From a virus, in IMG/VR virus record IMGVR_UViG_3300043015_002491, positions 58,510 to 122,509 of that record: 64,000 nucleotides of DNA; one strand, given 5' to 3'. Position 1 is the stretch's first letter, and each line of letters begins with the position of its first letter. The notes below the pieces were generated by a model, which searched no databases, was not told the origin of the DNA, and worked only from the letters and a program-made list of their open reading frames with translations. The position numbers and the translations under genes are program-made. Shown here one piece after another: positions 2,918-34,410 of this stretch.

Positions 2918-3232
2918 TTAAAACCTTGTAAAAATATTCTTTAAAAATGTACCTAATTTTTGATACCACTTTTTCTTTATTATAATTATACCGTTTGGGT
3001 TTGATTTAACTTTTTCACCTAAACCACTTTTAATTTCATTAATAAACCTGTTTTTCTTCCTTTCAACATCTTCTTTAATAGCTTTAATATCATTATTAAT
3101 GGAATCAATCGTTTCTACTTTTTCTAAACTTTCTTCCTTTTCTAGACCACTAATAAAAGTTTTATTATGTTCTTTAAATTTTGAAAGGACTGCTTCTAAC
3201 GGTATCTTACCCTCTAATTTTGGTTTACTCAT
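2918..3232 (-). CDS. Hypothetical basic/charged protein
   Basis: A 104-residue protein, mostly helical and charged, with a likely coiled coil at 27-70 and a basic, aromatic C-terminus (W-Y-Q-K-L-G-T-F-L-K-N-I-F-T-R-F) that may form an amphipathic membrane-binding helix. Its start overlaps the stop of the NUDIX gene by 4 bp, showing translational coupling. No family recognised. Confidence 0.65.
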   Translation of the reverse strand: MSKPKLEGKIPLEAVLSKFKEHNKTFISGLEKEESLEKVETIDSINNDIKAIKEDVERKKNRFINEIKSGLGEKVKSNPNGIIIIKKKWYQKLGTFLKNIFTRF

Positions 3233-3663
3233 ATTCTATTTATTTTACCCTTTAACCCTGGAAACAGTGGTTCTGGTAATTCATTTTTATCAAACCAACC
3301 CCAATCCAGATTCTCATGGTCTAATGTAGGTATAAATTCGCTATTTGTCAAGCCTTCGTAATAATGAAACTCTAAATTTTTACTCTTATGGTAGATTTTA
3401 TCTATAAATTTATAAGAAATAATATTTGGGTTTATCTGCATTTCTTCATTAACTTCTCTTTTAAGCCCTTCTAATACATCTTCACCGTCTTCAATACCAC
3501 CACTAACTAATGACCATGTATTAGGTTCATCACCAAAGTCATTTCTAAGTAATAATAGGATTCTACCAGTCGAGTTACACTTAACCAATACTCCAGCCGC
3601 AGTTCTTTTGTTTTCGTTTTCCATTAACATATATCTAACTTTATTTTTAATTAAATCTTTCAT
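3229..3663 (-). CDS. NUDIX hydrolase with short N-terminal leader
   Basis: A 144-residue protein whose NUDIX box (about residues 72-94) matches G-x5-E-x7-R-E-U-x-E-E-x-G-U except that the last glycine is glutamine (R-E-V-N-E-E-M-Q-I). NUDIX enzymes cleave nucleoside diphosphates linked to another group; phage members act on dNTPs, (p)ppGpp, NAD-like compounds or RNA caps, and the substrate here cannot be read from sequence. The first 17 residues (MKDLIKNKVRYMLMENE) lie before the NUDIX fold and resemble the N-termini of the proteins at 11576-11830 and 22130-22621. The motif ATATTTATA lies 4 bp before the ATG. Confidence 0.85.
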   Translation of the reverse strand: MKDLIKNKVRYMLMENENKRTAAGVLVKCNSTGRILLLLRNDFGDEPNTWSLVSGGIEDGEDVLEGLKREVNEEMQINPNIISYKFIDKIYHKSKNLEFHYYEGLTNSEFIPTLDHENLDWGWFDKNELPEPLFPGLKGKINRI

Positions 3664-3667
3664 ATTA

Positions 3668-3677
3668 TATAAATATT
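3668..3677 (-). promoter_or_regulatory. ATATTTATA motif before the NUDIX gene
   Basis: AATATTTATA on the minus strand ends 4 bp before the ATG. It is one of nine exact ATATTTATA copies before gene starts here and overlaps the TTG element of the divergent promoter at 3676-3706. It may be a phage-sigma promoter element or a translation signal. Confidence 0.4.
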
Positions 3678-3706
3678 GACTTATTGGATGATAAACGTTA
3701 TCTTTA
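3676..3706 (+). promoter_or_regulatory. Bacteroidetes-type promoter for the plus-strand membrane gene
   Basis: TTG (3676-3678), exactly 20 bp, then TATCTTTA (3699-3706), one base off TAnnTTTG; the ATG follows at 3723. It is the only candidate for this isolated plus-strand gene. Confidence 0.55.
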
Positions 3707-3722
3707 AAGAAAAATTAAAGTT

Positions 3723-4049
3723 ATGGTAAATTTATTTATTTTCGTATTAGTTGCTTATGGGATTAGTAACATTTTAATCTATGGTTCAATCTTTGAAGGT
3801 TGGAGAACCTTACTATCTAAATTAGGGACTGGCGATAAGAGTCTTTATAAACTATTCACTTGCATGATGTGTTTACCTACTTGGGTAGGGTTTGGTTTAT
3901 CTTATTTGTTACAATCACAAGGGATTGATACACCTATGACCACTTATGGTATTGAGAATTTATACTTATCTATATTTTTAGATGGTGTATTAAGTAGTGG
4001 AGCTGTTTATGCGTTTAACGTATTAGTTGAATACTTTGAGGGTGAATAA
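3723..4049 (+). CDS. Small membrane protein, DUF1360-like
   Basis: A 108-residue protein with three likely membrane segments (about 2-22, 51-65 and 82-102) and a cysteine motif C-M-M-C (47-50) followed by L-P-T-W-V-G. The motif and topology recall the DUF1360 family found in phages and bacteria, whose function is unknown. It is one of only two plus-strand genes in the window and is transcribed alone: its own promoter lies upstream and a terminator follows 6 bp after the stop. This looks like an independently regulated accessory gene. Confidence 0.7.
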   Translation: MVNLFIFVLVAYGISNILIYGSIFEGWRTLLSKLGTGDKSLYKLFTCMMCLPTWVGFGLSYLLQSQGIDTPMTTYGIENLYLSIFLDGVLSSGAVYAFNVLVEYFEGE

Positions 4050-4055
4050 TAAAAA

Positions 4056-4073
4056 AGCCCCAATTAAGGGGCT
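4056..4073. terminator. Bidirectional terminator between converging genes
   Basis: Perfect stem AGCCCC/GGGGCT with a 6-nt loop, A-run on the left and T-rich tract on the right, between the stop of the plus-strand membrane gene and the stop of the minus-strand gene ending at 4079. Confidence 0.85.
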
Positions 4074-4078
4074 CTTTA

Positions 4079-4723
4079 TTAATAACTTCCAATTTTTTCT
4101 TCTTCACATACTGGACAAACTTCATCTGGTCCAGAACAATTACATGTTATATTTGGTACATCGAATTCTTCTAATTCAACCTTACCATTCTTAGGTGGTA
4201 ATTCAATATCTTGACCTTTAACATTAGTGATTTTAATTTCACCATTTACCTTTTCAGTTGTTTTTTTAACTTCTTCTGGGTTAGCTGGTGGTGGTGGTAG
4301 TGTTTCTTCCACATTAACATCATCTTCTAACTCAAAGTTATCCATATCACCTAACGATGGCATAACACCTGGTTTATTAAAAGTAAATTTAAGTTCTTGT
4401 AATTCGTGTAAAGTTTTTTCTTTAAATAATTTTTTAAGTTCTTCTACCTTTTGTTTAAGTAATTCATATTTCTTTTCTCTTTCAATATTAACGCTAATAA
4501 CACCTTCAACATAATCTAATAAGTCGTCAATTGTTACACCTTCCTTTTCAGTGAAGAACATATAGTAATTTTGAGATTCATCAACTAACTCTTTTTTAAT
4601 CACATCACTATTTGGTACCGTCCACCCTTCTTTAAAGACAGCATCAACAATTTGCATACCTTGGATGTATCTAATACCAACAATGTGGGGTTGTAATGAA
4701 TCTAATCTTTCTTGTATTGACAT
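4079..4723 (-). CDS. Hypothetical protein with C-terminal cysteine cluster
   Basis: A 214-residue protein: a mixed alpha/beta N-terminal part (1-75), a charged coiled coil (about 78-110), a proline/acidic linker, and a C-terminal cluster C-N-C-S-G-P-D-E-V-C-P-V-C typical of a small zinc-binding knuckle. No family recognised. It is followed by a shared terminator and lies among small accessory genes. Confidence 0.7.
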   Translation of the reverse strand: MSIQERLDSLQPHIVGIRYIQGMQIVDAVFKEGWTVPNSDVIKKELVDESQNYYMFFTEKEGVTIDDLLDYVEGVISVNIEREKKYELLKQKVEELKKLFKEKTLHELQELKFTFNKPGVMPSLGDMDNFELEDDVNVEETLPPPPANPEEVKKTTEKVNGEIKITNVKGQDIELPPKNGKVELEEFDVPNITCNCSGPDEVCPVCEEEKIGSY

Positions 4724-4738
4724 AAAACAATTTTATTT

Positions 4739-4951
4739 TTAAATATAAATACCAGTTACGATACTCATTAAGATATATGCTATAGACATGCTCAATACCC
4801 ATAACGAAGTATTTTTAACTAAATACTTCTTAGGATTTTCAGTACTTGATTTCACCCAAGCTTGAGTAAAGTAGTACCCATGTCTAATAACGTTTAAACA
4901 TGACATAAATAACAAAATAAGTAAAATTTTATTGAGCATATCTATTAACAT
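4739..4951 (-). CDS. Small membrane protein
   Basis: A 70-residue protein with two hydrophobic segments (about 4-20 and 47-68) joined by a basic loop. No family recognised. It lies 10 bp after the H1-like gene and 15 bp before the 214-residue gene, in the same minus-strand run. A role in the host envelope is possible but not shown. Confidence 0.6.
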   Translation of the reverse strand: MLIDMLNKILLILLFMSCLNVIRHGYYFTQAWVKSSTENPKKYLVKNTSLWVLSMSIAYILMSIVTGIYI

Positions 4952-4961
4952 AATTTTTTAT

Positions 4962-5135
4962 TTAAGCTTTTTTCTTATCAGAAATTTCAAGTCTAAGCTC
5001 TTGAGCTACTTTTTTAATTTCTTGTAACCCTTGTCTAACTCTAGTTCCAGCAGCTTTATTGCTCTTACTATAGAATTTTTCTACATCTTCGTTAAGTCCT
5101 TCTACTAAAGCTTTTAAATTTTCAAATTTTTCCAT
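4962..5135 (-). CDS. Histone H1-like DNA-binding protein (Hc1-type, 57 residues)
   Basis: This 57-residue gene starts MEKFENLKALVEGL and contains F-Y-S-K-S-N-K-A-A-G-T-R-V-R-Q-G (21-36), the hallmark of the short histone H1-like proteins that are common in Bacteroidetes (pattern N-K-A-A-G-x-R-x-R). It ends in the basic segment S-D-K-K-K-A. The protein should be a helical hairpin that binds DNA or nucleoid. Its presence in a phage suggests capture from the host and a role in host nucleoid takeover, genome compaction or transcription control; this is inference. It is too short for ordinary ORF cut-offs and easily missed. Confidence 0.85.
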   Translation of the reverse strand: MEKFENLKALVEGLNEDVEKFYSKSNKAAGTRVRQGLQEIKKVAQELRLEISDKKKA

Positions 5136-5148
5136 TTTAATTTAATTT

Positions 5149-5385
5149 TTAATTATTATTATTGTTATTATTATTTGCGCTAGGTGCGTTAGCACTTGGC
5201 GCTGTATATGAATTCCATTTGGAAATCATAGTTTCAATTTTAACTATTTCAGCCAGTGATTCTTTAATTTCATCAACTAAATACTCAATATTACTTTCAC
5301 TACTATTGATAAGTCTTTGGAGTTTCTCTTCAGCCTTTAATTTATCACTAGCTAACTCAGCTAATATAATTTCAATCATTCTCAT
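5149..5385 (-). CDS. Small coiled-coil protein with Asn-run tail
   Basis: A 78-residue protein with a helical coiled-coil body (1-55) and a low-complexity tail of two A-P-S-A-N repeats followed by eight asparagines, encoded by an AAT/AAC triplet run. The tail is prone to length change by slippage. No family recognised. It precedes the H1-like gene in the same direction. Confidence 0.6.
   Translation of the reverse strand: MRMIEIILAELASDKLKAEEKLQRLINSSESNIEYLVDEIKESLAEIVKIETMISKWNSYTAPSANAPSANNNNNNNN
5152..5175. repeat. (ATT)n triplet repeat
   Basis: Eight consecutive ATT/GTT triplets (one GTT interruption) encode the Asn run at the C-terminus of the 5149-5385 gene. Copy number may vary among isolates. 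Confidence 0.8.
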
Positions 5386-5389
5386 GTGG

Positions 5390-5419
5390 TAAATATAAGG
5401 TATTAAAAATATTAATCAA
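5390..5419 (-). promoter_or_regulatory. Weak Bacteroidetes-like promoter
   Basis: TTG (5417-5419), 19 bp, TATATTTA (5390-5397), ending 4 bp before the ATG of the 5149-5385 gene. Spacing and the last base differ from the eight better matches, so this is tentative. Confidence 0.35.
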
Positions 5420-5436
5420 CCCTTAAACACGTTTTT

Positions 5437-5910
5437 TTACCCTTTTTTAAGGGATTCGTCTAAAATTTTGTAGATTTCTATGAAGTTATCCATATCAGAA
5501 CGTGTCTTAAGTTTATTATATGAAAACACTGATATCCATAGGGTTCTAATTGTGATAGGTACATTTCTATTGTCTTTATCATCGAGCATGTAAAATACTT
5601 CCATCATGAATTCTAAAAAATAATCATAAGCTTCTTTAGATTCATTAAAATGTATTTCTTCTTCTTTAAAATTATCGATGTTTTTATTCCAACACCATTT
5701 AAAATGATTTACTTTATCTTCGTCTGATGTGAAATCATCACCCATATAAGTATCAAATATAAGAGTCAATAAAGATTGTACAAAGTCACTAAACAAAAGA
5801 CATTTCTCATATCTAATGTTATTGGCGCTATATAATACTGCCACACTATCTTCACTTAACGGTGTTTTAATATAACTCAAAAATTCCCTAGTTTTATCCT
5901 CTTTTTCCAT
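5437..5910 (-). CDS. Hypothetical acidic helical protein
   Basis: A 157-residue, acidic, largely helical protein rich in aromatic residues (for example H-F-K-W-C-W-N-K at 90-97). No signal peptide, membrane segment or known motif is seen. It follows the endolysin gene in the same direction, with 38 bp between them. Function unknown. Confidence 0.6.
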   Translation of the reverse strand: MEKEDKTREFLSYIKTPLSEDSVAVLYSANNIRYEKCLLFSDFVQSLLTLIFDTYMGDDFTSDEDKVNHFKWCWNKNIDNFKEEEIHFNESKEAYDYFLEFMMEVFYMLDDKDNRNVPITIRTLWISVFSYNKLKTRSDMDNFIEIYKILDESLKKG

Positions 5911-5948
5911 TTAATCTAAATATATAGAATCAATAGAAAAAATAAATG

Positions 5949-6830
5949 TTATAATGACAATAGCATGTCAATTAAATCTTGTTGTGGAAATAAATCTGTT
6001 TTATCTTTCCTAGTATTGGTGTGGGTCCACATACCCTTCACTTTACCATAATAAGCATCTTCATTAAATTCAAAAGCATCGACACCCTTTTTCTTTATTT
6101 CTGATATTAAACCTTCTCTAACGTCAATACCATCCCTTTCGGCAATAAATAATATTAATTTTCTAGTACTCTCTATCTGTTCATCAGAATATCTATGCCA
6201 TTCTTGATGACCTCTAAATGGTTTATCTAACTTTACTATTTGTTCTGGTACTACACTAGTCCCAGCATAAGTCTTACCATTTGTTACATAACCAAAATTA
6301 CATATTTCAAGCCCTACAGAATGTGTGTGCATATGTTGTGAACCATTCTTACCTAAATGCCACCCATACCCACCTTCTGGAATACATTGTAACATCTTAC
6401 CATCATAATTAAAGTCATCACCCTTTACAGATGGTCCACCTAATACAAACTCAGTAGCTATTGACCCTCTAGAGTCCATACCCCACTGGTCAACACATTT
6501 ATATGGATTGTGCCAGCCAGCTGTATGATGTAAAAATAAATATTCTTTGTTTGTAGGACCTTCTTTATATTCACCCTTTGGTAGAAGATATCTTTCAATT
6601 ATTAATCCATTAGAAGTCTCGTAAAACGCCTCTGTATTGTCTGTGGTAGCTAACCCCATAGCATCCCAAGTTTTAGGACCTACAATACCATCAGCTTTTA
6701 ACCTATTTTGATGTTGCCACCTAATTACCGCTGATTCTGTACCTGGACCGAAATCACCATCAGCTGTTATACCTAAAAACTCTTGTAATTCTTTTACTTC
6801 TTTTCCCTTAGAACCTTTTTTTAATATCAT
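5949..6830 (-). CDS. Endolysin: N-acetylmuramoyl-L-alanine amidase with peptidoglycan-binding domain
   Basis: A 293-residue protein with an N-terminal peptidoglycan-binding domain (about 1-60; G-x-x-G-x-E-V-K-E-L-Q and D-G-D-F-G-P-G-T motifs) and an Amidase_2 domain (about 93-250). The likely first zinc ligand is in F-L-H-H-T-A-G (H101/H102), and the L-E-I-C-N-F motif (174-179) is the usual core strand. The enzyme cleaves the amide between MurNAc and L-Ala in peptidoglycan. No signal peptide is present, so release needs a holin or another route. A second amidase (13652-14272) sits in a separate cassette, so the two may serve lysis and entry separately. Confidence 0.9.
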   Translation of the reverse strand: MILKKGSKGKEVKELQEFLGITADGDFGPGTESAVIRWQHQNRLKADGIVGPKTWDAMGLATTDNTEAFYETSNGLIIERYLLPKGEYKEGPTNKEYLFLHHTAGWHNPYKCVDQWGMDSRGSIATEFVLGGPSVKGDDFNYDGKMLQCIPEGGYGWHLGKNGSQHMHTHSVGLEICNFGYVTNGKTYAGTSVVPEQIVKLDKPFRGHQEWHRYSDEQIESTRKLILFIAERDGIDVREGLISEIKKKGVDAFEFNEDAYYGKVKGMWTHTNTRKDKTDLFPQQDLIDMLLSL

Positions 6831-6869
6831 AACTTTTCTTTAGTAATAAATATTATACTAAATAAAAAA

Positions 6870-6887
6870 ACCCTCACAATGGAGGGT
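6870..6887 (-). terminator. Terminator after the 582-residue gene
   Basis: Stem ACCCTC/GAGGGT with a 6-nt loop followed on the minus strand by a seven-base T run, 26 bp beyond the stop at 6914. Confidence 0.8.
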
Positions 6888-6913
6888 TTTTATTTTAAAG
6901 TTTTAAGTTTGTA

Positions 6914-8662
6914 TTATCTATTAACTCTCATTACCATGTTTAATGGAATGTCATATCCTTGTGGGTCAATAACTGGTTCCATTTCACCATCTTCACCTGG
7001 TACATACTCGATTTCTAACCAATCACTAGTTTGTGGATTATCAGAACCGTAAGCGTCTCTAACTTTAGCAGCATCACCATCGTCAGATAACATCACTTCG
7101 TAACCACCAGCATTACTTATTGTATACGTTCCGTGTGGGATGAATTCTTCATCTTCTTCAAACACGCCTCTACCCTTAAGAATATCAGCTTGCGTTACTT
7201 TACCATCACGTGTTAAGTCTGGGAAATCTTTACCTTCTTCTTCTGAATATAAGTCTTCAAAGATTTCATCGAATCTATCACCTTCTTTTCTAATACTTAT
7301 TTTGTTTAATGAATTCATAGTACCCTCAAATCCTGGTATGTCATATCTAGATGGTTCTTCACCCATTCTAACTTTAAGTTCATTCTGTAATTGTAGAATG
7401 TCAGCTTCAAGCTCATTAACCATTCTTGAATTACCTTCTTTTTTATAATATTCTAAAGCGTCTGAAAGAACTTTTATTTGTACAGATAATTCAGCATCTG
7501 TACCATCTGTATTTACATTTTCGTTTATCTCAGCAGCTTCAGAGTCCGCAGACTTATCATTCATAAGTTGTCTAGCAATTTGCTTTTGTAAAACTTCGTT
7601 ATCACCAACAATAGCTTTAACATAAGCAGCTGCCGCCTCTATTTTTTCTGGTTTAGTATTAATTTTAGACGCTAATGTTTTAATTTTACTCATATCACCC
7701 ATAGTGTTGAATAAATTTTCAACATCTTTATTTTCAAATTCATCTAATTTTTCGTCAGATTCTTCTCTTTCCATTTCAGCGATTTTGTCGTGACCTTCAA
7801 GATTACCTTCGTTTTTGAATCCCGTACCAAATGCTTCATTAATATCTTTCTTTTTGTTTTTTAATTTTTTAAATACCTTATAAGCAACAACAGATAAAAT
7901 ACCACCAGCTAAAGCACCTAATGCTTGTATTAACATTGGGTTGTGTGCATGCATCATTTGTTCAATCGTTCCAATATTAGTAGCTATTTTACCTAAAACC
8001 ATTGGGTTTGGTACTAGCTTATCAGCTAATACGCCACCACCAACCATTGCACCTATGACTCCACCTATTTTACCACCCATGTCACCATCAGAAGATTCAG
8101 TCACACTTGAAGCTTTTTTCATTCCGAAATCCATAGCTTTTTCGATGAATTCATTACCGATTGTTGGTAATCCCTCATTTTCATTAGTCTTACCCATTGC
8201 AACAAATTGCTGTAAAGCCTCAATCGCTTGTGGGTTATTTAATATTTCATTAGAAATTTTTTCAATGTTTGGGTCATTGATTAATTTAGGTAATTCTTTT
8301 TTAATCTCACTTGATATTTCATCAGAACTAGGTCCAGCTTCTTCATTTAATAACCTCTTAGTCTTATTCCAAACATCAGTAAACGACTTATTCTCGTTAA
8401 GTCTTTGTTCACCCTTTAAATTACCAAGAGTATCTTGAGATTTGAAACCCATAAGGTGTTTCATCTTTTTCATATCCTCACTAATAAGGTTTTTATTCTC
8501 AGCTCTTAATACAGTTGCTTCATTGATATCCCATCTAACATCGTATGTCTCAGTACCATCAGTTATTTGGAATTCCTTACCATCTACTTTGTAAGATTCT
8601 GGAATTAATTTTAATGCATTATCCATTCCGTTGAATGGTTTTTTAAATGTAAGTCTTTTCAT
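6914..8662 (-). CDS. Acidic phage protein with paralogous N-terminal module and Gly-rich hydrophobic core
   Basis: A 582-residue acidic protein. Residues 1-110 (starting MKRLTFKKPFNGMDNALKLI) are paralogous to residues 189-305 of the next gene upstream, sharing I-P-E-S-Y-K-V-D, M-K-H-L-M-G and T-L-G-N-L-K-G. A glycine-rich hydrophobic part (about 195-270) could form membrane helices. The motif [LI]NE followed by A, E or N occurs five times (D-I-N-E-A, R-L-N-E-N, L-L-N-E-E, D-I-N-E-A, E-I-N-E-N), resembling the (L/I)xE sites cut by T4-type prohead protease. A virion-internal or scaffold role is inferred; no family is recognised. Confidence 0.65.
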   Translation of the reverse strand: MKRLTFKKPFNGMDNALKLIPESYKVDGKEFQITDGTETYDVRWDINEATVLRAENKNLISEDMKKMKHLMGFKSQDTLGNLKGEQRLNENKSFTDVWNKTKRLLNEEAGPSSDEISSEIKKELPKLINDPNIEKISNEILNNPQAIEALQQFVAMGKTNENEGLPTIGNEFIEKAMDFGMKKASSVTESSDGDMGGKIGGVIGAMVGGGVLADKLVPNPMVLGKIATNIGTIEQMMHAHNPMLIQALGALAGGILSVVAYKVFKKLKNKKKDINEAFGTGFKNEGNLEGHDKIAEMEREESDEKLDEFENKDVENLFNTMGDMSKIKTLASKINTKPEKIEAAAAYVKAIVGDNEVLQKQIARQLMNDKSADSEAAEINENVNTDGTDAELSVQIKVLSDALEYYKKEGNSRMVNELEADILQLQNELKVRMGEEPSRYDIPGFEGTMNSLNKISIRKEGDRFDEIFEDLYSEEEGKDFPDLTRDGKVTQADILKGRGVFEEDEEFIPHGTYTISNAGGYEVMLSDDGDAAKVRDAYGSDNPQTSDWLEIEYVPGEDGEMEPVIDPQGYDIPLNMVMRVNR

Positions 8663-8688
8663 TTTTATATTGTTTTATATTAATTTTA

Positions 8689-9882
8689 TTAATGTAGGTA
8701 ATAGGCTCTTTGGAAGGCACCAGATATTGCATATTTAGCTTCTTCACTACCGCTATCTAAATCTTTTCTTATTTGATTAAAGATATCCATTTCTTCAACC
8801 TCTGGTTTAACTGAAGTAGCGTTATAAGCCTTCTTCAAAATCCCTTTATCAGCTTCATCAGATAATTTACCAGCAACATATTCTAATTCTTTAGCTAAAG
8901 CTTGTGAGTTAACCTTTGCACCTGTTCTGTATTGTTCTTTACCACTAGCTTTTACCGTTTTTCTATCTAAATCAGAATAATCTGCTTCATTTAATAAGTT
9001 TTTAGTTTTACCCCAAATATCATTGAATGATTTATCCTCATTGATTCTCTCAGCACCCTTAAGGTTACCTAATGTCTCTTGAGACTTATATCCCATAAGA
9101 TGTTTCATCTTATTCATATCTTCATTCATAAGTTGCTTATCAGAAGCCTTAAGAACGATAGCTCTACCTTCATTAAGTGAACCTTCCCATCTGATTTCAT
9201 AATTCTCATTACCATCAGTCATTTGGAAAGTTTTATTATCAACTTTGTATGATTCTGGAATCATCTTTAGTGCGTTCTCCACACCTTTAAATTCATTTTT
9301 AAATACAAGTCTTTTCATTTTACTTTCATTTTTAGGCCCACTCTTTTTAATTTCTTCATCATCAAAGTCAGCACCAGAAATACGCAATGATTTTCTAACA
9401 TTACCAGCTTCAACTTCTAGTCTTTTCTTTTTGAATTTTTGAGCATCATCATATACTTTTTCATTACCTTCTGGTCCTTGGAATCCAGCTTGGTCTCCAG
9501 GTACAACGTTTGCAACGTCATCACCCTTATTTGCATTACCCATTGTAGAATCACCTTCAATAGCTTTCTTTTGTCTTTCGTCCCACTCTTCAGTGTCACC
9601 ATTAACCTCTAAAGCGGCCATACTACCCTTTTGTAGTTCACCTACATCATGTAATTCAGCTTGTTTATCACTATAGTTATATTTTTTAACGACCTCAGCG
9701 TTTTCTTTTTCACCATCCATTTTAGTGAAGTCTTTCATCTTTTTTTCAACATCTTTCATAGCAGCTTTGTTTTCCTTACCAGAGTCTTTTTGAACCTTTT
9801 CAGTTGCAGTTAACCCCTTTGGTTTAGATTCTTCCATTAAGAATGTAGAATCAAGATATTTTTTAATTAATGACTTATTCAT
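8689..9882 (-). CDS. Acidic phage protein, apparent fusion carrying the same paralogous module
   Basis: A 397-residue protein. The first 188 residues are highly charged and low in hydrophobics, starting with a helical leader (MNKSLIKKYLDSTFLMEE). From Met189 (MKRLVFKNEFKGVENALKMI) it repeats the module that opens the 582-residue neighbour, as if a duplicate gene had been fused in frame behind an unrelated N-terminus. The module ends in N-L-L-N-E-A, another [LI]NE site. The C-terminal 90 residues are helical. No family recognised; likely virion-associated by context. ATATTTATA lies 16 bp before the ATG. Confidence 0.65.
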   Translation of the reverse strand: MNKSLIKKYLDSTFLMEESKPKGLTATEKVQKDSGKENKAAMKDVEKKMKDFTKMDGEKENAEVVKKYNYSDKQAELHDVGELQKGSMAALEVNGDTEEWDERQKKAIEGDSTMGNANKGDDVANVVPGDQAGFQGPEGNEKVYDDAQKFKKKRLEVEAGNVRKSLRISGADFDDEEIKKSGPKNESKMKRLVFKNEFKGVENALKMIPESYKVDNKTFQMTDGNENYEIRWEGSLNEGRAIVLKASDKQLMNEDMNKMKHLMGYKSQETLGNLKGAERINEDKSFNDIWGKTKNLLNEADYSDLDRKTVKASGKEQYRTGAKVNSQALAKELEYVAGKLSDEADKGILKKAYNATSVKPEVEEMDIFNQIRKDLDSGSEEAKYAISGAFQRAYYLH

Positions 9883-9898
9883 AATATTATCTTTTTTA

Positions 9899-9908
9899 TA
9901 TAAATATA
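9899..9908 (-). promoter_or_regulatory. ATATTTATA motif
   Basis: TATATTTATA on the minus strand, 16 bp before the ATG of the 397-residue gene, without a TTG element 20 bp upstream. Confidence 0.4.
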
Positions 9909-9914
9909 AACTTT

Positions 9915-11573: not shown

Positions 11574-11575
11574 AT

Positions 11576-11830
11576 TTAATTACTTTTATTAGACAATCCG
11601 TTTTTCCAGAAAGCTCTTTTAGTCCATAACTGTTTATATAATTGCGTTAAAACATTCTTAGTTATTTCAACAACTTTATCCTCTAAAGCTTTTTCAGTTT
11701 TGATTCTATCTTTAACAATTTTTTCAACCTTACTTTTAAATTCAGAAGAATCCATATACTTTTTAATTTCTGATTTAACATCAGATTTATTAACTTCCTC
11801 GTTTAACTTTTGTCTAATTAAATCTTTCAT
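11576..11830 (-). CDS. Small helical protein with candidate targeting leader
   Basis: An 84-residue, charged, helical protein beginning MKDLIRQKLNEEVNKS. This start resembles those of the NUDIX protein (MKDLIKNKVRYMLMEN) and of the GNAT-like protein (MKNFIKQKLRENLNLS), and contains the L-N-E sequence that fits a T4 prohead-protease site. The C-terminus is basic and aromatic (K-R-A-F-W-K-N). It is the first gene of the unit after the terminator at 11869-11885. Confidence 0.6.
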   Translation of the reverse strand: MKDLIRQKLNEEVNKSDVKSEIKKYMDSSEFKSKVEKIVKDRIKTEKALEDKVVEITKNVLTQLYKQLWTKRAFWKNGLSNKSN

Positions 11831-11843
11831 TATTTTCTTTATT

Positions 11844-11853
11844 TATAAATATT
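11844..11853 (-). promoter_or_regulatory. ATATTTATA motif
   Basis: AATATTTATA on the minus strand, 13 bp before the ATG at 11830 and just after a terminator, where a fresh start of transcription would be expected. Confidence 0.5.
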
Positions 11854-11868
11854 GAATAATAATAAAAA

Positions 11869-11885
11869 AACCCCTCAAGGGGGTT
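11869..11885 (-). terminator. Terminator after the tail-tube-like gene
   Basis: Stem AACCCC/GGGGTT around a 5-nt loop, followed on the minus strand by a T run, just past the stop at 11890. Confidence 0.8.
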
Positions 11886-11889
11886 ATTT

Positions 11890-12414: not shown

Positions 12415-12427
12415 AAATAAATATTTT

Positions 12428-13181: not shown

Positions 13182-13184
13182 TAT

Positions 13185-15582: not shown

Positions 15583-15586
15583 ACTA

Positions 15587-15620
15587 TATAAATATATGGT
15601 TTAATCATTTAATGCGTCAA
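15587..15620 (-). promoter_or_regulatory. Promoter-like element before the membrane/amidase cassette
   Basis: TATATTTATA (15587-15596) lies 4 bp before the ATG. A TTG occurs at 15618-15620, 21 bp upstream of TATATTTA, so the site has features of both motif classes in this window. Confidence 0.45.
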
Positions 15621-16434
15621 ATAAACCATGAGCATTGTGTCTAACTTTTCTAATGGCTTTTTCTTTTATTTGTCTAACCCTTTCTTTAGTGATACCATAC
15701 TTTTCACCGATAGCTTCTAATGTCATTGGTTCATATTCACTATCTATACCGTAATAAGCTTTAATAATTTCTCTTTCTCTATCACTAAGTAATGATAATA
15801 CAGAGTTAAGCTCTTCTTTAACCCTTTCATCTATATCGTAAAAGCTTTCATCTTTTAACGAATTTTTATCTTCAAGGATTTCATATAATTCACTACCGTC
15901 TTCATTAATAAATTCGTTAAGTGAACCACAACTAGGTAATGAGAATAAATCAACGAAATTTTCATTCTCCATTAGTTCTTCGTTAGTTGGTTCTCTTTCA
16001 TTCTTAAATTCAAAACTTTCAATTTCTTTTTTGATTTGTGAAATTTTACCAATAACGTTAGATGGTATTCTTATAGTTCTTGAATTATCGTTTAAGGATT
16101 GCATAATAGATTGTTTAATCCAATGCACTGCGTATGAAATAAAACGAAAACCCCTAGTATGGTCATATCGCTTTGCAGCCTTTACTAAACCAAAATTACC
16201 TTCACTAATTAAATCAGATAAAGATAAACCTTGCCCTTGGTATTCTTTAGCTATTGATATCACAAACTTTAAATTTGATTCTACTAACTTATCAATAGCT
16301 AAATCATCACCTTCTTTTATTCTTATTGCTAAATCAACTTCTTCTTGTGGACTTAACAATTCTGATTTTCTTACATCTTTAAAATATTTAGAGATACTCT
16401 CATCTCCATTAAAATTTACGTATACTTTACTCAT
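15601..16434 (-). CDS. Sigma-70 family RNA polymerase sigma factor, RpoD-like
   Basis: A 277-residue sigma factor with region 1.2 (about 15-45), region 2 (46-115; F-R-F-I-S-Y-A-V-H-W-I-K-Q-S-I being the -10-binding helix), region 3 (about 120-200) and region 4 (210-270; L-E-A-I-G-E-K-Y-G-I-T-K-E-R-V-R-Q-I-K being the helix-turn-helix). Size and layout match the short RpoD of Bacteroidetes, which also lacks region 1.1. The -10-reading helix has H where the host protein usually has W in the W-W-I-R-Q motif, which could alter promoter choice. It probably redirects host RNA polymerase to phage promoters. ATATTTATA lies 45 bp upstream. Confidence 0.9.
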   Translation of the reverse strand: MSKVYVNFNGDESISKYFKDVRKSELLSPQEEVDLAIRIKEGDDLAIDKLVESNLKFVISIAKEYQGQGLSLSDLISEGNFGLVKAAKRYDHTRGFRFISYAVHWIKQSIMQSLNDNSRTIRIPSNVIGKISQIKKEIESFEFKNEREPTNEELMENENFVDLFSLPSCGSLNEFINEDGSELYEILEDKNSLKDESFYDIDERVKEELNSVLSLLSDREREIIKAYYGIDSEYEPMTLEAIGEKYGITKERVRQIKEKAIRKVRHNAHGLFDALND

Positions 16435-16479
16435 TAATTACATTATTCTATAACTTTGTTATTTATGTCTGTTAGGACA

Positions 16480-16489
16480 TATAAATATA
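16480..16489 (-). promoter_or_regulatory. ATATTTATA motif before the sigma gene
   Basis: TATATTTATA on the minus strand, 45 bp before the ATG of the sigma factor, without a TTG 19-21 bp upstream. If the sigma factor recognises this motif, the gene would be self-activating. Confidence 0.4.
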
Positions 16490-16520
16490 CGTAAATAATA
16501 AAAAAAGTAAACCTTTTTAA

Positions 16521-17051
16521 TTACATTTTTGTGAGAAATTCAAGTATTTCTTTATCGTGGTCAGTAAGATTATCGACACCCTTATCAAGTATTTCGTTCA
16601 TAAGTTTTTCCCTATCTTTTTTACCCATTTCTTTCAACATTTCTTTTCTATACCTAGTTTTAGGTTTTACAAAAGTCCTTGAACCATAACTGGTAATACC
16701 ACTTGATGCTTTATCATTAACACTCGACACATCATCAATCAATTTATTTGTCAAATCTTCTAACTCTAAGTCATATTCTTTACTTATATGACCAAATAAA
16801 GCATCATTTAACCCTTCATTAGTTAAGAAATAACCAGATGTTTCTGGGTCAGTATCAAATATTAAAAAATTTCTATTTAATGACTTAAAATAATCGGTAA
16901 GCTCACTAACTTCAGCAATACTAGTAAAAGTTGATATAACAATACCCTTAGCTTCTAAAAATCTAGGTGAATCCTCGGCAATTTTACCAATCTCTAGTTT
17001 ACATCCACTAGTTTCACCCATAACAACTATACAATAACTTCTAAATTTCAT
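16521..17051 (-). CDS. Hypothetical protein
   Basis: A 176-residue protein with an alpha/beta N-terminal half (K-G-I-V-I-S-T-F and F-L-I-F-D-T-D strands) and a basic linker (128-145). The C-terminal helix pair (L-M-N-E-I-L-D-K-G-V-D-N-L-T-D-H-D-K-E-I) resembles the short DUF6576-type motif found at the ends of several Bacteroidetes proteins. It has its own host-type promoter and sits between gp46 and the sigma gene. Function unknown. Confidence 0.65.
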   Translation of the reverse strand: MKFRSYCIVVMGETSGCKLEIGKIAEDSPRFLEAKGIVISTFTSIAEVSELTDYFKSLNRNFLIFDTDPETSGYFLTNEGLNDALFGHISKEYDLELEDLTNKLIDDVSSVNDKASSGITSYGSRTFVKPKTRYRKEMLKEMGKKDREKLMNEILDKGVDNLTDHDKEILEFLTKM

Positions 17052-17079
17052 ATTTATTTTTTTTTTGTTCGTATTATAA

Positions 17080-17110
17080 CAAATATAACATTTTTTTCTT
17101 TTAAAATCAA
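17080..17110 (-). promoter_or_regulatory. Bacteroidetes-type promoter
   Basis: TTG (17108-17110), exactly 20 bp, TATATTTG (17080-17087); the ATG of the 176-residue gene follows 28 bp later. Confidence 0.8.
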
Positions 17111-17113
17111 AAT

Positions 17114-19489
17114 TTACTTAAGTTTTGATATATTATTTTCCTTTATTACCGTTATAATGTTATCAGCCCAGTCCTTAACCATATCATTTTGAGTAATGAA
17201 GAAAACTATGTCAAACATATCAGAAACTCTCTCGAAAAGTGGTTTCATATTAGGTAAGTTATCCGCTGCAACCCTACCCATAACCTCATCGAATACAATA
17301 AAGTTAGGTGTTGGTAATGATGACATCTTACCTAAGACACATCTAAGGGCAATACTTGAAGTTGTTAATTCAAATCCACTACCAGACTTCAATGGTTTCT
17401 CTACACCGTCTTTAATTAATAAATATTTAACTTCATTCTTATCGTCAATATAAACTTCAACCTCAAAGTCTGTAATATCTTCTAATAATCTTTGTAACTC
17501 ACCATTAATGATAGGTAAAACACTTCTAAGTATTAATTTACTAATACCCTTTTTACCAATCATGTCAATATAAATCTTAAAGATTCTATCAATCTCTTTT
17601 TCTTTACCGATAGTAACTATTAACTTCTCTTTAGTTTCAATATCCTTAGTATTAGAACTAACACTTATAGCTATATCCTTTAAAGCATCATTAATTAAAT
17701 CTTTTTGTCTATCAGATACAACTATTTTAGTATCTACTTGACTGATTTCGATATCAATCTCTTTATTCTTGTCAATAGCTTCTAAATTAGCGTTATATTT
17801 CTTTAAGTCACTCATCTTTTCCTTCAAAGTAACCCTAAATGAGTCAATCTCAACTTCAAGACGGTCTTTTTGTAATTCTAATTTATTTTTATTTTCGATT
17901 AATTTCTTAGAATCAGACATCCCAGTTATTTCAGTCTCAATATCTTTTAACTTTCTTTCAGCCGTCTCCTTTTCTCTCTTAATATTTTCAATAGTACCAT
18001 TATGTTCAGCGATATGTTTACTATTATCCACATCATCCAATGGTCTATTACAAGCTTTACATATTCCACTCTTAATTAAATCCTCTACAACACCTTCTAA
18101 TCTAGTAATTTCAGCTTCTTTAACAGCAATATCACTACTAGTTTTAGTTTTTTCTTTATTAAGTCTAAAATCTTTCTCTTCATCAAAATCAACCTTACCT
18201 ATTTCTTTGATTTTAGATTCTATTTCTTGAATTGTCTTCTTATGTACTTTACCATTAGCAGTAATAGTGTCAATTTCAGTTTGAAGTGTCTTAGGGTTAA
18301 GCGCTAACACTTCATCATCAATCTTAATCTTTGATGTAGCTAATCTTAATTTCTCGTCTTGTAATTTCTTATTAACTTTTTTCTCAATTTCTAATTCATT
18401 TTCTTTGACACCCTTATCTTTCTCTAGTTGTATTAAATTTTCCTTATGTGTTTCAATCTCTTCTTTAAGAGTTTCGATATCATAAAGATTAGACTTCATT
18501 GTTTTAGTAAAGGTATTATGCATTTTCCTAACAATACTCTCCTTTTCAGAAAGAACTTCTAAACCAATAAATCTAGTTAGTAATTTACCAGATTCACCAG
18601 CTGTTGAATCAACTAAATCGTCAAGGTTCTTTGATGTTGCTAATACAACCAAATCGAAGTCTTTTTCAGTACCAATAGTATCCTTAATCAATTCAGTTGT
18701 TTTTCTAGCATCTTCATCATTCATCTCTTCTTCTTCACCATCTGGTAGTATTCTATAATAAGATAACTTATTAGTTACATTCCAACCACCTTTTCTCTTT
18801 GGTTTTCTCTCAAGATATCTTTCAATAATGAATTCATCTTCACCTTCAATTTCCATCATACCTCTAACAATAAGGTCTTTTTCTTCATTAAACTGGTTAA
18901 ACACCTCAACATTCTTATCAGTCTTAGTTGTTTTACCAAAGAATAAGAATTTAACAGCATCAATTGTAAGTGTTGTCTTTCCACCCTGGTTCGCTGGCTG
19001 GGAATTAATTACTGTAAAACCCTTATACTTGTCTACTGGAAAATAATTACCATTACCAAATGATAAGAAATTATTCACCATAAGCCATGATAGTTTATAC
19101 TTTTTATGTAATGTTTCTTCTAAATCATATTCTAATTCAGCGTTAACTTTATCGTCTAAAGCTATGATTCTATCGAAATCAACATCGTCTTTACCTTCTC
19201 TAGTAAGCCATTCTTTAAAAAGGCTTCTTTGGTATGGTATACTCATGATATTGTCAATAGTGGCACCATCAATCTTAATTTCTTTACCAGACTTATCAAC
19301 CTTAACTGGTCTATAAACAACATTAATATTTTGTGTTGGTATTCCGTACTTATTTGAAAAATACTTCTTTACTCTAGCTCTAGATTCCCTAGAGTAGTTC
19401 TCTGGTTTGTCATCCCAATACACCTTAATCTTTGCATAAGGTGGTATACTAACTTTGTTTGTTTCTACTATTTCTTTTTCCTGTTCCAT
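17114..19489 (-). CDS. Recombination nuclease ATPase subunit, gp46/SbcC/Rad50-like
   Basis: A 791-residue SMC-like ATPase. The N-terminal part holds the nucleotide-binding loop N-Q-G-G-K-T-T (about 170), then long coiled coils meet at a zinc hook C-K-A-C (about 477), and the C-terminal part holds the signature region (F-E-L-T-T-S-S-I-A-L-R) and Walker B (F-I-V-F-D-E-V-M-G). The P-loop has P where A or G normally starts the motif. With gp47 it should form the exonuclease that resects DNA ends for recombination-dependent replication. An unusual 110-residue N-terminal extension precedes the ATPase. The gene overlaps its upstream neighbour by 22 bp. Confidence 0.9.
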   Translation of the reverse strand: MEQEKEIVETNKVSIPPYAKIKVYWDDKPENYSRESRARVKKYFSNKYGIPTQNINVVYRPVKVDKSGKEIKIDGATIDNIMSIPYQRSLFKEWLTREGKDDVDFDRIIALDDKVNAELEYDLEETLHKKYKLSWLMVNNFLSFGNGNYFPVDKYKGFTVINSQPANQGGKTTLTIDAVKFLFFGKTTKTDKNVEVFNQFNEEKDLIVRGMMEIEGEDEFIIERYLERKPKRKGGWNVTNKLSYYRILPDGEEEEMNDEDARKTTELIKDTIGTEKDFDLVVLATSKNLDDLVDSTAGESGKLLTRFIGLEVLSEKESIVRKMHNTFTKTMKSNLYDIETLKEEIETHKENLIQLEKDKGVKENELEIEKKVNKKLQDEKLRLATSKIKIDDEVLALNPKTLQTEIDTITANGKVHKKTIQEIESKIKEIGKVDFDEEKDFRLNKEKTKTSSDIAVKEAEITRLEGVVEDLIKSGICKACNRPLDDVDNSKHIAEHNGTIENIKREKETAERKLKDIETEITGMSDSKKLIENKNKLELQKDRLEVEIDSFRVTLKEKMSDLKKYNANLEAIDKNKEIDIEISQVDTKIVVSDRQKDLINDALKDIAISVSSNTKDIETKEKLIVTIGKEKEIDRIFKIYIDMIGKKGISKLILRSVLPIINGELQRLLEDITDFEVEVYIDDKNEVKYLLIKDGVEKPLKSGSGFELTTSSIALRCVLGKMSSLPTPNFIVFDEVMGRVAADNLPNMKPLFERVSDMFDIVFFITQNDMVKDWADNIITVIKENNISKLK

Positions 19490-20034
19490 AAATCACTTAT
19501 ATTTGAACCGAAGAAGCCTTGTTTACCTTCTCCGTATATGTCATTATCTTCTTCTTTTGGTTTAGCTTTCTCCGCTTCTAATTCTTCTTTTAGTTGTGAA
19601 ATTTCTTTAGTTAAATCGGATATTTTCCCATTAAGTGTGTCGATTTCATCAAGTTGTTTATTCCTTAATTGACTTGTTTCTTGCATAGCAGCAGCACTCT
19701 TAAGTTTTTCAGAAGCTAATTTACTTCTAACATCTTTTAGTTCTATTTGTAACTTATTAACTACTTCATCATCAGTTACAAATACTTCCTTCTCAACAAT
19801 TTTCTCAACTTCCCTCACCACTTCAACTGGTACTTCCTTAATAACCTCTTTTTCTACAATCTTTTCAACTTCCACTTCTTTTATTTCGGCTGGTTTATCC
19901 CATGGAGTAGCACCAAACTTCTCAGACGTAAAACCTTGTCTTACCATCTTTATTATAAAGTCATCTACCCCAGAGATATCATTCAAACGGCAATATTCCC
20001 AGATTTCATCTTTAAGTTGTTTTGGTAACTCCAT
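19468..20034 (-). CDS. Coiled-coil protein between gp47 and gp46
   Basis: A 188-residue protein: a small helical N-terminal domain (1-45, starting MELPKQLKDEIWEYC), a remarkable V/E/K repeat stretch (about 50-85; V-E-K-I-V-E-K-E-V recurs), then a coiled coil (90-160) and a short C-terminal tail (F-F-G-S-N-I-S-D-L-W). It shares one base with the gp47 stop and overlaps gp46 by 22 bp, so it is made together with both subunits and may be a partner of the nuclease complex. No family recognised. Confidence 0.7.
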   Translation of the reverse strand: MELPKQLKDEIWEYCRLNDISGVDDFIIKMVRQGFTSEKFGATPWDKPAEIKEVEVEKIVEKEVIKEVPVEVVREVEKIVEKEVFVTDDEVVNKLQIELKDVRSKLASEKLKSAAAMQETSQLRNKQLDEIDTLNGKISDLTKEISQLKEELEAEKAKPKEEDNDIYGEGKQGFFGSNISDLWNRKKK

Positions 20035-20849
20035 TATAAATTAGTTAATTGTTCAGTACCATTATCTAAATCATCCAATGATGTTACCTTGAATTGATAG
20101 AAACCATAATCAGTTTCAATATCATGCTCTTCAAATGTTCTTGATTCTACATCCCACCATAAGAAACCATGCTTACTTACAGTCTCCCCAAAGTTTTGTT
20201 GAATAAGACTAGACGGATACGCAATTGGGATGCCCTTGTAATTAAACACTTGTCTCTTGTGGATATCACCAAGTAACACCATATCACAACCTTCAAAGTG
20301 TTCTAACGCTGTTGCTTCGTCAAATTCATATCCGATATCGGTAGTAGCCCCAATAATTGGTGCATGATAAAGCCCTATATAAGTTTTATCATCGCCATGT
20401 TCTGTTCTACCTTCTTCAATATTAGGTCTAGTATTTTCTTCAAATATTGAATAGTTACACCATACAATATTTTCATCTAAATAACACTTAGATTCCTTGT
20501 AATATTTAATATCTAAGTCTGGTAGTAGTTGTACCATTGGTGTGATGCTATCAACTCTATCCTTATTATTTTCTAATAAGTCATGATTCCCAGCTACGAT
20601 TACAACTGGTGCAATCTTCTCTAGTTTTCTAAGGAACCATGTACCAAGTATAAGAAGTTCATTGGAAATCGTAATCTTCTGGTGAACATAATCACCAACT
20701 ATAACGATTCTTATTTCTTCTCTCTCATATCCTTTAACCATTTCTCTAATGGTCTTAAGGAAAGTTTTAAATGCTGCTCCGTATTCATCGTGCATCCTAT
20801 ATGTTCTTATGTGAATATCAGCAATATGTATTATTTTTTTTACTTTCAT
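20034..20849 (-). CDS. Recombination nuclease subunit, gp47/SbcD/Mre11-like
   Basis: A 271-residue metallophosphoesterase with the expected motif order: A-D-I-H-I-R (near 10), V-G-D-Y-V-H (about 51), A-G-N-H-D-L (about 91) and L-G-D-I-H-K (about 193), which bind two metal ions. It is the nuclease partner of gp46/SbcC. It is shorter than bacterial SbcD (about 400), as usual for phage forms, lacking the C-terminal cap. Its gene is first in the gp47 / coiled-coil / gp46 chain. Confidence 0.9.
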   Translation of the reverse strand: MKVKKIIHIADIHIRTYRMHDEYGAAFKTFLKTIREMVKGYEREEIRIVIVGDYVHQKITISNELLILGTWFLRKLEKIAPVVIVAGNHDLLENNKDRVDSITPMVQLLPDLDIKYYKESKCYLDENIVWCNYSIFEENTRPNIEEGRTEHGDDKTYIGLYHAPIIGATTDIGYEFDEATALEHFEGCDMVLLGDIHKRQVFNYKGIPIAYPSSLIQQNFGETVSKHGFLWWDVESRTFEEHDIETDYGFYQFKVTSLDDLDNGTEQLTNL

Positions 20850-20850
20850 A

Positions 20851-21057
20851 CTATAATTTACTTAATTTTTCTAAATAATGTTCTGACTCAACTGCTAAAT
20901 AAAATAACATATCTAATCTTTCAGAATCAAATATAATATTTTTTTCTTCTTCAGACAAGTTATTAAAATTATTAATTAAAAATTTTAACTTTTCATTAAT
21001 ATTAATAAAACCACTTATAGTGTCATCAATATTTCTAGCGATATCGTTTTTATCCAT
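20851..21057 (-). CDS. Small helical protein
   Basis: A 68-residue acidic, helical protein. Its ATG overlaps the end of the PD-(D/E)XK nuclease gene by 8 bp and its stop lies 1 bp before the gp47 start, so it belongs to the recombination operon. No family recognised. Confidence 0.6.
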   Translation of the reverse strand: MDKNDIARNIDDTISGFININEKLKFLINNFNNLSEEEKNIIFDSERLDMLFYLAVESEHYLEKLSKL

Positions 21058-22000
21058 TTTTCTTTTTTATTTCTTCAGCTAATAATTGTTTTCTCTTTTT
21101 ATCTCTGGAAGCAAATCTCTTTTTCTCAGCAAATACTCCATCAATTCTTGGTAATGGGTCCATTGTTAATACCTTCGTATAAAATGATTTCTCAATCTTA
21201 TATTCAGTGAATTTACCATCATCTGTTAAGTGAACAATGATAGCACCTAAGAATTTAAGGTTTTCATACTTTGTACCCTTAAGCATATCCATTATAAGTC
21301 TAGCATATAATGGTAATTGAATCTTATAATGACTTAACGCTGTGTCTGGCCATTCTTCAAATGGTTCCAGCATTTGTTCAGTATATGAATGCACTTCAAA
21401 GTTTTTTGGCTTATTCGTTTTCCAATCTGTCACTATAAACCCTAGTACACCATTCTCATCAAATATAACCCAAACCTTATCTGGTTGACCTGTATAACCT
21501 AACTCTGGGCTACCTAATACCATCTCTGTATCAAGAAGTATAGCACCTCTACGATGCATAAGACGAATAAAATCATGACCAGCATCAATCATGTTATTAC
21601 CATCAATAATTTGTTGTTCATCACAATCAAATATGGGTTTTCTTACTTCCTTATATGAACCATATTGAGCCAATAAATCAGTTTCTAACAAATAGTGAAC
21701 TCTTGAACCCTTATTATTAGCGTAATCAGCTGTACCTTGCCATTGAGTTAACAATTCATCTTGTGCTACTAAATCACCATTAGTCATTTGCCATGACTTA
21801 TCTAATGATGGAAAATCATTATAAAATTGTTTTATAACTGTAGATACACTAGGATAATCTGAACGTATCTTACCATTCAAATCTCTCATGTAGTAAGTGT
21901 GTGTATCTTCAACAAAGGATAAGTCAAGTTCTTTTTGTCTTTGCTCAATTACATCTCTTATTTCTTTTGCAATTTTTTTTAATTCTTCTTTATTATCCAC
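21050..22000 (-). CDS. PD-(D/E)XK nuclease, RecB/Cas4-like
   Basis: A 316-residue protein with the ordered motifs of the RecB-type nuclease fold: G-S-R-V-H-Y-L-L-E (motif with catalytic His, about 93-101), G-Y-T-G-Q-P-D-K-V-W (Asp, about 170), G-F-I-V-T-D-W-K-T-N-K (D-x-K, about 189-199) and Q-L-P-L-Y-A (motif Q-x-x-x-Y, about 229-234). It is a likely DNA exonuclease or end-processing enzyme, in an operon with gp47 and gp46. It is driven by a host-type promoter with a 69-bp leader. Confidence 0.85.
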   Translation of the reverse strand: MDNKEELKKIAKEIRDVIEQRQKELDLSFVEDTHTYYMRDLNGKIRSDYPSVSTVIKQFYNDFPSLDKSWQMTNGDLVAQDELLTQWQGTADYANNKGSRVHYLLETDLLAQYGSYKEVRKPIFDCDEQQIIDGNNMIDAGHDFIRLMHRRGAILLDTEMVLGSPELGYTGQPDKVWVIFDENGVLGFIVTDWKTNKPKNFEVHSYTEQMLEPFEEWPDTALSHYKIQLPLYARLIMDMLKGTKYENLKFLGAIIVHLTDDGKFTEYKIEKSFYTKVLTMDPLPRIDGVFAEKKRFASRDKKRKQLLAEEIKKKNG

Positions 22001-22075
22001 ACTTATCTATTAAATCTTTTTATTAAATCATTTCTATATTCGTTATAAGTCATACTTTTAATTTTACAATTAAAA

Positions 22076-22106
22076 CAAATATACCCATTTTTTAGTTAAA
22101 AATCAA
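22076..22106 (-). promoter_or_regulatory. Bacteroidetes-type promoter for the recombination operon
   Basis: TTG (22104-22106), exactly 20 bp, TATATTTG (22076-22083). It directs the nuclease-gp47-gp46 operon and its TTG abuts the ATATTTATA motif of the divergent gene. Confidence 0.8.
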
Positions 22107-22116
22107 TATATTTATA
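22107..22116 (+). promoter_or_regulatory. ATATTTATA motif, plus strand
   Basis: TATATTTATA ends 13 bp before the plus-strand ATG at 22130. It shows the motif follows gene direction, because here it is on the plus strand. Confidence 0.5.
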
Positions 22117-22129
22117 GTAAAAGGAAAAA

Positions 22130-22621
22130 ATGAAGAATTTTATAAAACAAAAATTAAGGGAAAACCTAAATTTATCAACATTATCTTTATATAGTAAGGT
22201 AGATATTTCTGATGATGAGAAATTAAGGATAAAAAATCTTAAATGGTCTGATTTAATTTTAGAACCACAAAATGAAATGTCACCAGTGCAGATTAAAGTT
22301 GATTTCCCATGGGAGAGTGAAGTTTCAAAAGGCATTGCTTTAGATATCACTTTAGTTAAAGATATGTTTTATCAAATTCACATTTCATTAGATGAAAATC
22401 TTAGAGGGTTAGGTTTAGGTTATAAAATATATAAAGCTATTATAATGAATTTTGGCCATGTTTATTCTGGTAAAGGTAGGAGACTTAATAGTTTAGAAGT
22501 ACCTAAGATTTGGGATAAATTATCTAAAGATTCAGATATAACATGTGTTTCTAACGATATAGCTGATATGTGTGTTGCTAATAACGCACCAAATAAAGAT
22601 GAGTTATTAAATAATTTCTAA
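22130..22621 (+). CDS. GNAT-like acetyltransferase with short N-terminal leader
   Basis: A 163-residue protein. The segment L-D-E-N-L-R-G-L-G-L-G-Y-K-I-Y-K-A (about 87-103) is the acetyl-CoA-binding motif A (R-x-x-G-x-G/A) of GNAT enzymes, placed after a beta strand (Y-Q-I-H-I-S). The rest is short for a GNAT, so a reduced or modified enzyme is possible. The first residues (MKNFIKQKLRENLNLS) match the leader seen on the NUDIX and 84-residue proteins. It is one of two plus-strand genes and its TAA overlaps the TAG of the converging primase gene (sequence CTAA). Confidence 0.65.
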   Translation: MKNFIKQKLRENLNLSTLSLYSKVDISDDEKLRIKNLKWSDLILEPQNEMSPVQIKVDFPWESEVSKGIALDITLVKDMFYQIHISLDENLRGLGLGYKIYKAIIMNFGHVYSGKGRRLNSLEVPKIWDKLSKDSDITCVSNDIADMCVANNAPNKDELLNNF

Positions 22622-34409: not shown

Positions 34410-34410
34410 A

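Follow-up and report, generated by a model that had tools for sequence, protein, structure and literature searches.

The internal head proteins of bacteriophage T4 have only an N-terminal leader in common; they are injected as first-strike anti-restriction factors, and Ip1-3 differ in the GmrSD restriction enzyme that they block (PMC12373910). The capsid-targeting sequence (CTS) of T4 comprises the first 10 residues of IPIII, in which residues 4 and 7 mainly govern targeting and residues 8 and 10 processing, and the protease gp21 cleaves after L/I-X-E; with Asp at position 10, targeting persists although processing is blocked (PMC9026906). The first 10 residues of gp24 are also removed (PMC9958956). 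Here we describe a short N-terminal leader, with the consensus M-K-x-(L/F)-I-(K/R)-x-x-L-x-E, on proteins encoded in a 64,000-nucleotide stretch of virus DNA (bases 58,510-122,509 of the 122,509-base IMG/VR record IMGVR_UViG_3300043015_002491; hereafter the window). The original prediction, made from the window's sequence, was that such a leader targets unrelated proteins to the head. The predictions of this proposal that could be tested at the sequence level came out positive, and we consider it likely that the leader is a CTS private to this lineage of large T4-like phages.

The CTS of T4 IPII and IPIII (MKTYQEFIAE) and the leaders of IPI and Alt (MELITELFDE) resemble the leader described here in their N-terminal length of 10-11 residues, in their hydrophobic-x-acidic end and in preceding unrelated bodies. 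Both T4 and leader-bearing relatives have gp20/gp21/gp23-type heads, and an ADP-ribosyltransferase occurs in both protein sets, as packaged Alt in T4 and as a leader protein of the relative G001 (ART-PolyVal, 1.3e-10). The sequences differ, however, as none of 272 T4 proteins matches the leader pattern, and the likeness to MKTYQEFIAEA is one of layout only. There are also many more leader proteins per genome here, their packaging is a prediction from sequence, and the recognisable candidate cargo consists mostly of enzymes (NUDIX, CCA-adding, kinase, nucleotidyltransferase, lysozyme) rather than small inhibitors. The giant phages phiKZ and SPN3US likewise process many internal proteins after Glu with a gp21-related protease, but SPN3US propeptides mostly exceed 100 residues and the phiKZ motif is S/A-x-E, whereas the leaders here span about 11 residues with a hydrophobic P3. 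To our knowledge, neither phage has a short leader common to unrelated proteins. No description of M-K-x-L-I-K-x-x-L-x-E was found in the open-licence papers searched, and the leader sequence, together with the breadth and enzymatic nature of its cargo, is new.

A shared leader on unrelated proteins

The record (122.5 kb, 168 proteins; linear, of a class that is often fragmentary) is a fragment of a T4-like myovirus, with gp6- and gp25-type baseplate proteins, NrdA/B, UvsX and gp46/47, all assigned by eye except gp6. Flavobacterium phage immuto is among its closest cultured relatives (gp6 protein, 28% identity). Five closer, uncultured relatives were compared in stretches, namely G001 (194 kb), G002 (380 kb), G003 (103 kb), G015 (363 kb) and G017 (142 kb), and all five carry the leader. 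The hosts of the lineage are probably Bacteroidota, judging from the host of immuto and from related large-phage lineages for which Bacteroidota are predicted as hosts (PMC12619734; PMC9723584).

The leader is about 11 residues long, basic and amphipathic. A strict pattern, M-(x)-[KR]-x-x-[ILVF]-[KR]-x-x-[LIVMF]-x-E, was applied to N-termini, which depend on the choice of start codon, to shuffled N-termini and to internal Met sites. Nine of the 168 record proteins matched, against a mean of 0.08 and a maximum of 2 in 2,000 composition-preserving shuffles, and none of 588 internal Met sites did. Three relatives gave 7/213, 7/161 and 16/482 matching proteins, each exceeding every shuffle, and about 10 further record proteins have looser or related leaders. 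Over all relatives fetched, the strict leader stands on 28 mutually non-matching body clusters, a wider distribution than was first proposed. As the strict pattern itself requires E, a second test chose proteins by residues 2-6 only (K-x-[LFI]-I-[KR]). Residue 11 was E in 35 of these 52 proteins (background 6.7%, p 6e-29) and residue 9 was hydrophobic in 43 (p 3e-13), counts that are not fully independent because orthologues are included; MKDRIKILLRESSKK is a leader with both L9 and E11. Where E11 is missing, several proteins instead have an L/I-x-E shifted downstream by about one helical turn.

A position weight matrix (PWM) trained on other genomes, with this genome left out, has its information peaks at K2, I5, K6, L9 and E11, falls from residue 12 onward, and separates leader proteins from internal Met sites, the best of 572 of which scored 3.2. 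The features of the window, including an upstream motif that we read as late-type (see below), are as follows.

3229-3663, minus strand: NUDIX hydrolase, candidate packaged enzyme (PF00293, 7.6e-17 from residue 19); start MKDLIKNKVRYML
3619-3663, minus strand: NUDIX leader, MKDLIKNKVRYMLME; degenerate, with LME as its L-x-E at residues 13-15; PWM 6.3
3669-3676, minus strand: putative late-type motif ATATTTAT 5' of the NUDIX gene
8689-9882, minus strand: 397-residue protein behind a looser leader
9832-9882, minus strand: leader of the 397-residue protein, MNKSLIKKYLDSTFLME; LME at residues 15-17, no E11; PWM 4.6
9900-9907, minus strand: putative late-type motif ATATTTAT 5' of the 397-residue protein gene
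11576-11830, minus strand: 84-residue protein, candidate internal head protein; start MKDLIRQKLNEEV
11798-11830, minus strand: leader of the 84-residue protein, MKDLIRQKLNE; kept in G001, G002, G003 and G015; PWM 23.6
11845-11852, minus strand: putative late-type motif ATATTTAT 5' of the 84-residue protein gene
22108-22115, plus strand: putative late-type motif ATATTTAT 5' of the GNAT-like gene
22130-22621, plus strand: GNAT-like protein, candidate packaged enzyme, weak assignment; start MKNFIKQKLRENL
22130-22162, plus strand: leader of the GNAT-like protein, MKNFIKQKLRE; PWM 28.3, the top score of the record
60642-61421, minus strand: 259-residue acidic protein behind a looser leader
61383-61421, minus strand: leader of the 259-residue protein, MRKNKLNKELLNE; PWM 9.2

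The NUDIX, 84-residue and GNAT-like proteins do start alike on unrelated bodies, at the coordinates first given. The looser versions claimed for the 397- and 259-residue proteins also hold, and orthologues carry a canonical leader in the case of the 397-residue protein (MDKNIIKKYLNES in G017) and the leader MKNKIKKELLNEE in the case of the 259-residue protein (G002). The canonical E11, present in most of the proteins chosen above, is missing from the NUDIX and 397-residue proteins, in which the L-x-E comes later; the NUDIX orthologue of G002 has the canonical leader MKYFIRKRLLEE. The GNAT-like protein has no Pfam match. Its single-sequence AlphaFold2 model (predicted template modelling score, pTM, 0.69) drew mostly GNATs in Foldseek (E about 3e-3, template modelling score about 0.4), which weakly suggests a GNAT identity; in the model the leader is a low-confidence helix (predicted local distance difference test, pLDDT, below 50 at residues 1-20).

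An unsupervised comparison of similar N-terminus pairs with shuffles gave 13 pairs against 0.5 in this record and 165 against 5.7 in G002. Applied to T4 as a control, it recovered the known leaders (ipII with ipIII, alt with the duplicate alt.-1) as well as homing-endonuclease paralogues. Two more leader classes, MKLxxLYxxLLxE and MRRFDKKxNIxxANLLAEQRYL, are present in several of these genomes. Many leader proteins of G002 (L088-L107) continue into a second conserved stretch, DFDWV(R/K)(D/E).

Probable link of the leader to head maturation

The end of the leader matches sites at which T4-like head proteins are cleaved. The N-terminus of T4 gp24 reads MAKINELLRE-STTT, and leaders here end LLRE-S (MKDRIKILLRESS) and LLNE-S (MKKLIKKLLNESI); the gp24 propeptide has 10 residues against 11 here, with the same LLRE end followed by S, but gp24 is a shell protein whereas the leaders here are on non-shell proteins. 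In an alignment of gp23-type proteins, the column of the T4 gp23 Glu65 cleavage site reads LNE, LSE, ISE, VSE, LNE and LKE in six relatives, extending to LLNE and LLSE in some, with LNE, LSE and ISE in G015, G017 and G002, respectively. These same three leader-bearing phages have an S77 (gp21-type) prohead protease above cut-off.

Leader genes are also neighbours of head genes in two of the relatives. In G002, leader gene 152917 adjoins gp21, and 153796 and 159503 flank the major capsid protein (MCP) gene at 155604; in G017, leader genes 134227, 135565 and 136047 adjoin the MCP gene at 138042.

Among the sequences upstream of genes in this genome, two promoter-like motifs are prominent, ATATTTAT and TATATTTG. 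As ATATTTAT sits 5' of terL, gp20 and gp21 in G002 and of tail operons here, and TATATTTG 5' of genes such as those for a DnaJ-like chaperone and an RNA-ligase-like protein, we infer that they are late-type and early-type motifs, respectively. In this record, ATATTTAT lies within 50 bases upstream of 9 of 19 leader genes and 10 of 149 others (p 2e-5); G001 (2.5e-4), G002 (9.4e-5) and G015 (2.5e-4) follow this trend.

Modularity and proposed function of the leader

The leader behaves as a separable module. Alignments with NUDIX homologues in other jumbo phages begin only at residues 12-14, and those with NAMPT homologues mostly at residues 31-46. Among orthologues, leaders are gained, lost or swapped: the CCA-adding enzyme has MKDKIKQILRED here, MKKLIKKILREN in G003 and, in the 634-kb phage LR745206, MILKKYKMFLES on an enzyme 39% identical to that of this phage; the leader of the lysozyme is MKHLIENLLREE in this record but MEIRKIIREELNDFDW in G002. 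In one family, M1, K2, I5, L9 and E11 are invariant over bodies that are 23-39% identical. A 144-residue GIY-YIG nuclease (L005:19058-19492, minus strand; record 57058-57492) starts with a match to the N-terminus of the G002 MCP (KWNELGLLEG...MAMLLES). This propeptide region is also found on the nuclease of a second phage (81% identity; L138:6001-6438) and is missing from the G001 homologue.

If the leader is a CTS, leader proteins would be made mostly late, and the ~11-residue M-K-x-L-I-K-x-x-L-x-E segment would attach them to the core of the prohead scaffold. During maturation, the S77 protease would cut after L-x-E, and the released proteins would stay packed alongside the DNA and pass with it into the next host. 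All of these steps, from scaffold binding through cleavage and packaging to injection, are what we infer from the gene-level observations above. Since much of the recognisable cargo consists of enzymes acting on nucleotides, RNA ends and proteins, the likeliest purpose would be early takeover and counter-defence ahead of phage gene expression.

Several observations weigh against a CTS. Head genes are absent from the record, and as it is such a fragment, a PF03420 profile search of its 122.5 kb gave no match and the protease is demonstrated in the relatives, not in this phage. The MCP cleavage sites of the relatives are placed by alignment. The NUDIX leader is degenerate in this phage, the motif 5' of the CCA gene is of the putative early type, an orthologue of this gene (L112) has no leader, and the enrichment of ATATTTAT at leader genes is not significant in G003 (0.09) or G017 (0.2). 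A leader-like start on an apparently membrane-bound protein also fits poorly with soluble cargo. This small protein (L005:13780-14016, minus strand; record 51780-52016) begins MKEFIKDIFTED and appears by eye to have two membrane helices; a similar small protein (MKIFKDMLTERGKYS) lies between gp20 and gp21 in G002.

That small protein is conserved in five genomes and, together with the position of window leader genes near tail-type genes and the potential of a basic amphipathic helix to bind membranes, favours a different role, in which the leader would remain uncleaved and dock proteins elsewhere than on the prohead core, for instance on the inner membrane, on the tail or baseplate, or on a compartment induced by the phage. 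We regard this as unlikely, as it gives no reason for the fixed terminal L-x-E or for its identity with the gp23 and gp24 cleavage sites; moreover, leader genes flank gp21 and the MCP gene in G002 and G017, and the nuclease has a capsid propeptide in the leader's place. The gain, loss and swapping of leaders, and the clustering of leader genes within record 34014-46623, would also be expected if shared gene starts had spread as a recombination cassette with little function of their own. Codons and upstream bases differ between leader genes, however, which places the likeness at the protein level and led us to reject a DNA-level explanation; as key positions are also invariant in orthologues with diverged bodies, a cassette is very improbable. 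Slightly less credible still is the view that the leader is a translation-start signal or a degron and thereby controls expression or stability. Its position at the very start of the gene and the frequent late-type motif upstream could be cited for this, but amino acids rather than bases are conserved, the leader is limited to a small protein set from which replication proteins are missing, and a start signal would not fix E11. Chance likeness, which would be favoured by the abundance of K, I and E that goes with an A+T-rich genome, was rejected as next to impossible given the shuffles (9 matches against 0.08), the empty internal Met sites, the frequency of E11 and the recurrence in independent genomes.

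Candidate cargo and leaders of other large phages

On the CTS interpretation, the proteins behind the leader are candidate cargo. In the record, canonical or variant leaders precede the NUDIX protein (PF00293), an AAA_33 P-loop kinase, a phage lysozyme (PF00959), GP88, a CCA-adding/polyA-polymerase-type enzyme (PF01743, 7.1e-37) and an MTPAP-like nucleotidyltransferase (weak match). Related leaders precede an Acb1/2H protein (PF23474, 7.8e-7) and, slightly shifted, a probable NAMPT; in G015, the leader of an Acb1 relative (6.7e-9) ends LLNE. Most leader proteins received no informative function from PHROGs. In G003, a 506-residue leader protein and a nucleotidyltransferase are fused in one 859-residue frame; the strict pattern has no match inside this fusion. 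The idea that a complete tRNA-repair kit is packaged is weakened, because both RNA-ligase-like genes of the record (29712-30770 and 32355-33470, by eye) are without leader and one of them has the early-type motif.

Short shared N-termini recur in other large phages. The huge phages LR756508 (MKxxExxLRxIIxEE) and LR745206 (MILKKYKMFLES and similar) likewise have short, basic, amphipathic N-termini on several proteins, with sequences that differ from the leader here; no description of either was found in the literature searched. In LR756508 (484 kb; L132), more than 10 small proteins with such leaders surround an S77 protease and MCP, and 37 similar N-terminus pairs compare with 0.3 by shuffling, whereas the statistics of the LR745206 stretch are thin (2 pairs against at most 1). 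Immuto (L110, L108) has its own leader, M(x)NFDLKKFLVENKLTxNSxLL, on four proteins (MENFDLKKFLVENK), of which two are encoded immediately upstream of terminase; other proteins start with a second leader, MKKSxLxxxIKEEL. No comparable shared leader was seen in stretches of RM378 (24 kb) and Microcystis phage Mel-JY01 (41 kb).

These sequences are a new sign that different large T4-like lineages have their own leaders. A broader scheme, to which we give somewhat less than even credence, is that each such lineage keeps a private capsid label, that the same cargo enzymes (the CCA-adding enzyme, for example) take the label of their scaffold, that a capsid propeptide can also serve (as on the GIY-YIG nuclease), and that a dozen or more proteins are injected before phage gene expression. 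The injected set would then include enzymes of RNA repair, nucleotide and nicotinamide adenine dinucleotide (NAD) metabolism, cyclic-nucleotide counter-defence and ADP-ribosylation. If the leader is an address label, genomes alone would suffice to read out what uncultured giant phages inject. For this phage, the set would include RNA-end enzymes, NUDIX, Acb1-like proteins and probably NAMPT, with the ADP-ribosyltransferase in a relative; known anti-phage defences have links to several of these chemistries. The leader would also be a short tag for packaging into large T4-like phages of Bacteroidota.

Two further features of the sequence may be recorded. In the neighbouring proteins at 6914-8662 and 8689-9882, both on the minus strand, a domain of about 110 residues (MKRLTFKKPFNGMDNALKLIPESYKVDG...; 65% identical) occurs N-terminally in one and internally in the other, and the pair recurs in relatives. 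Mutually similar short plus-strand frames at L003:14983-15545, L004:948-1600 and L004:17784-18987 (record about 15-20.6 kb and 36.8-38 kb), with phrases of the GTRTHTPL and NGRN type, look like translated tRNA gene arrays.

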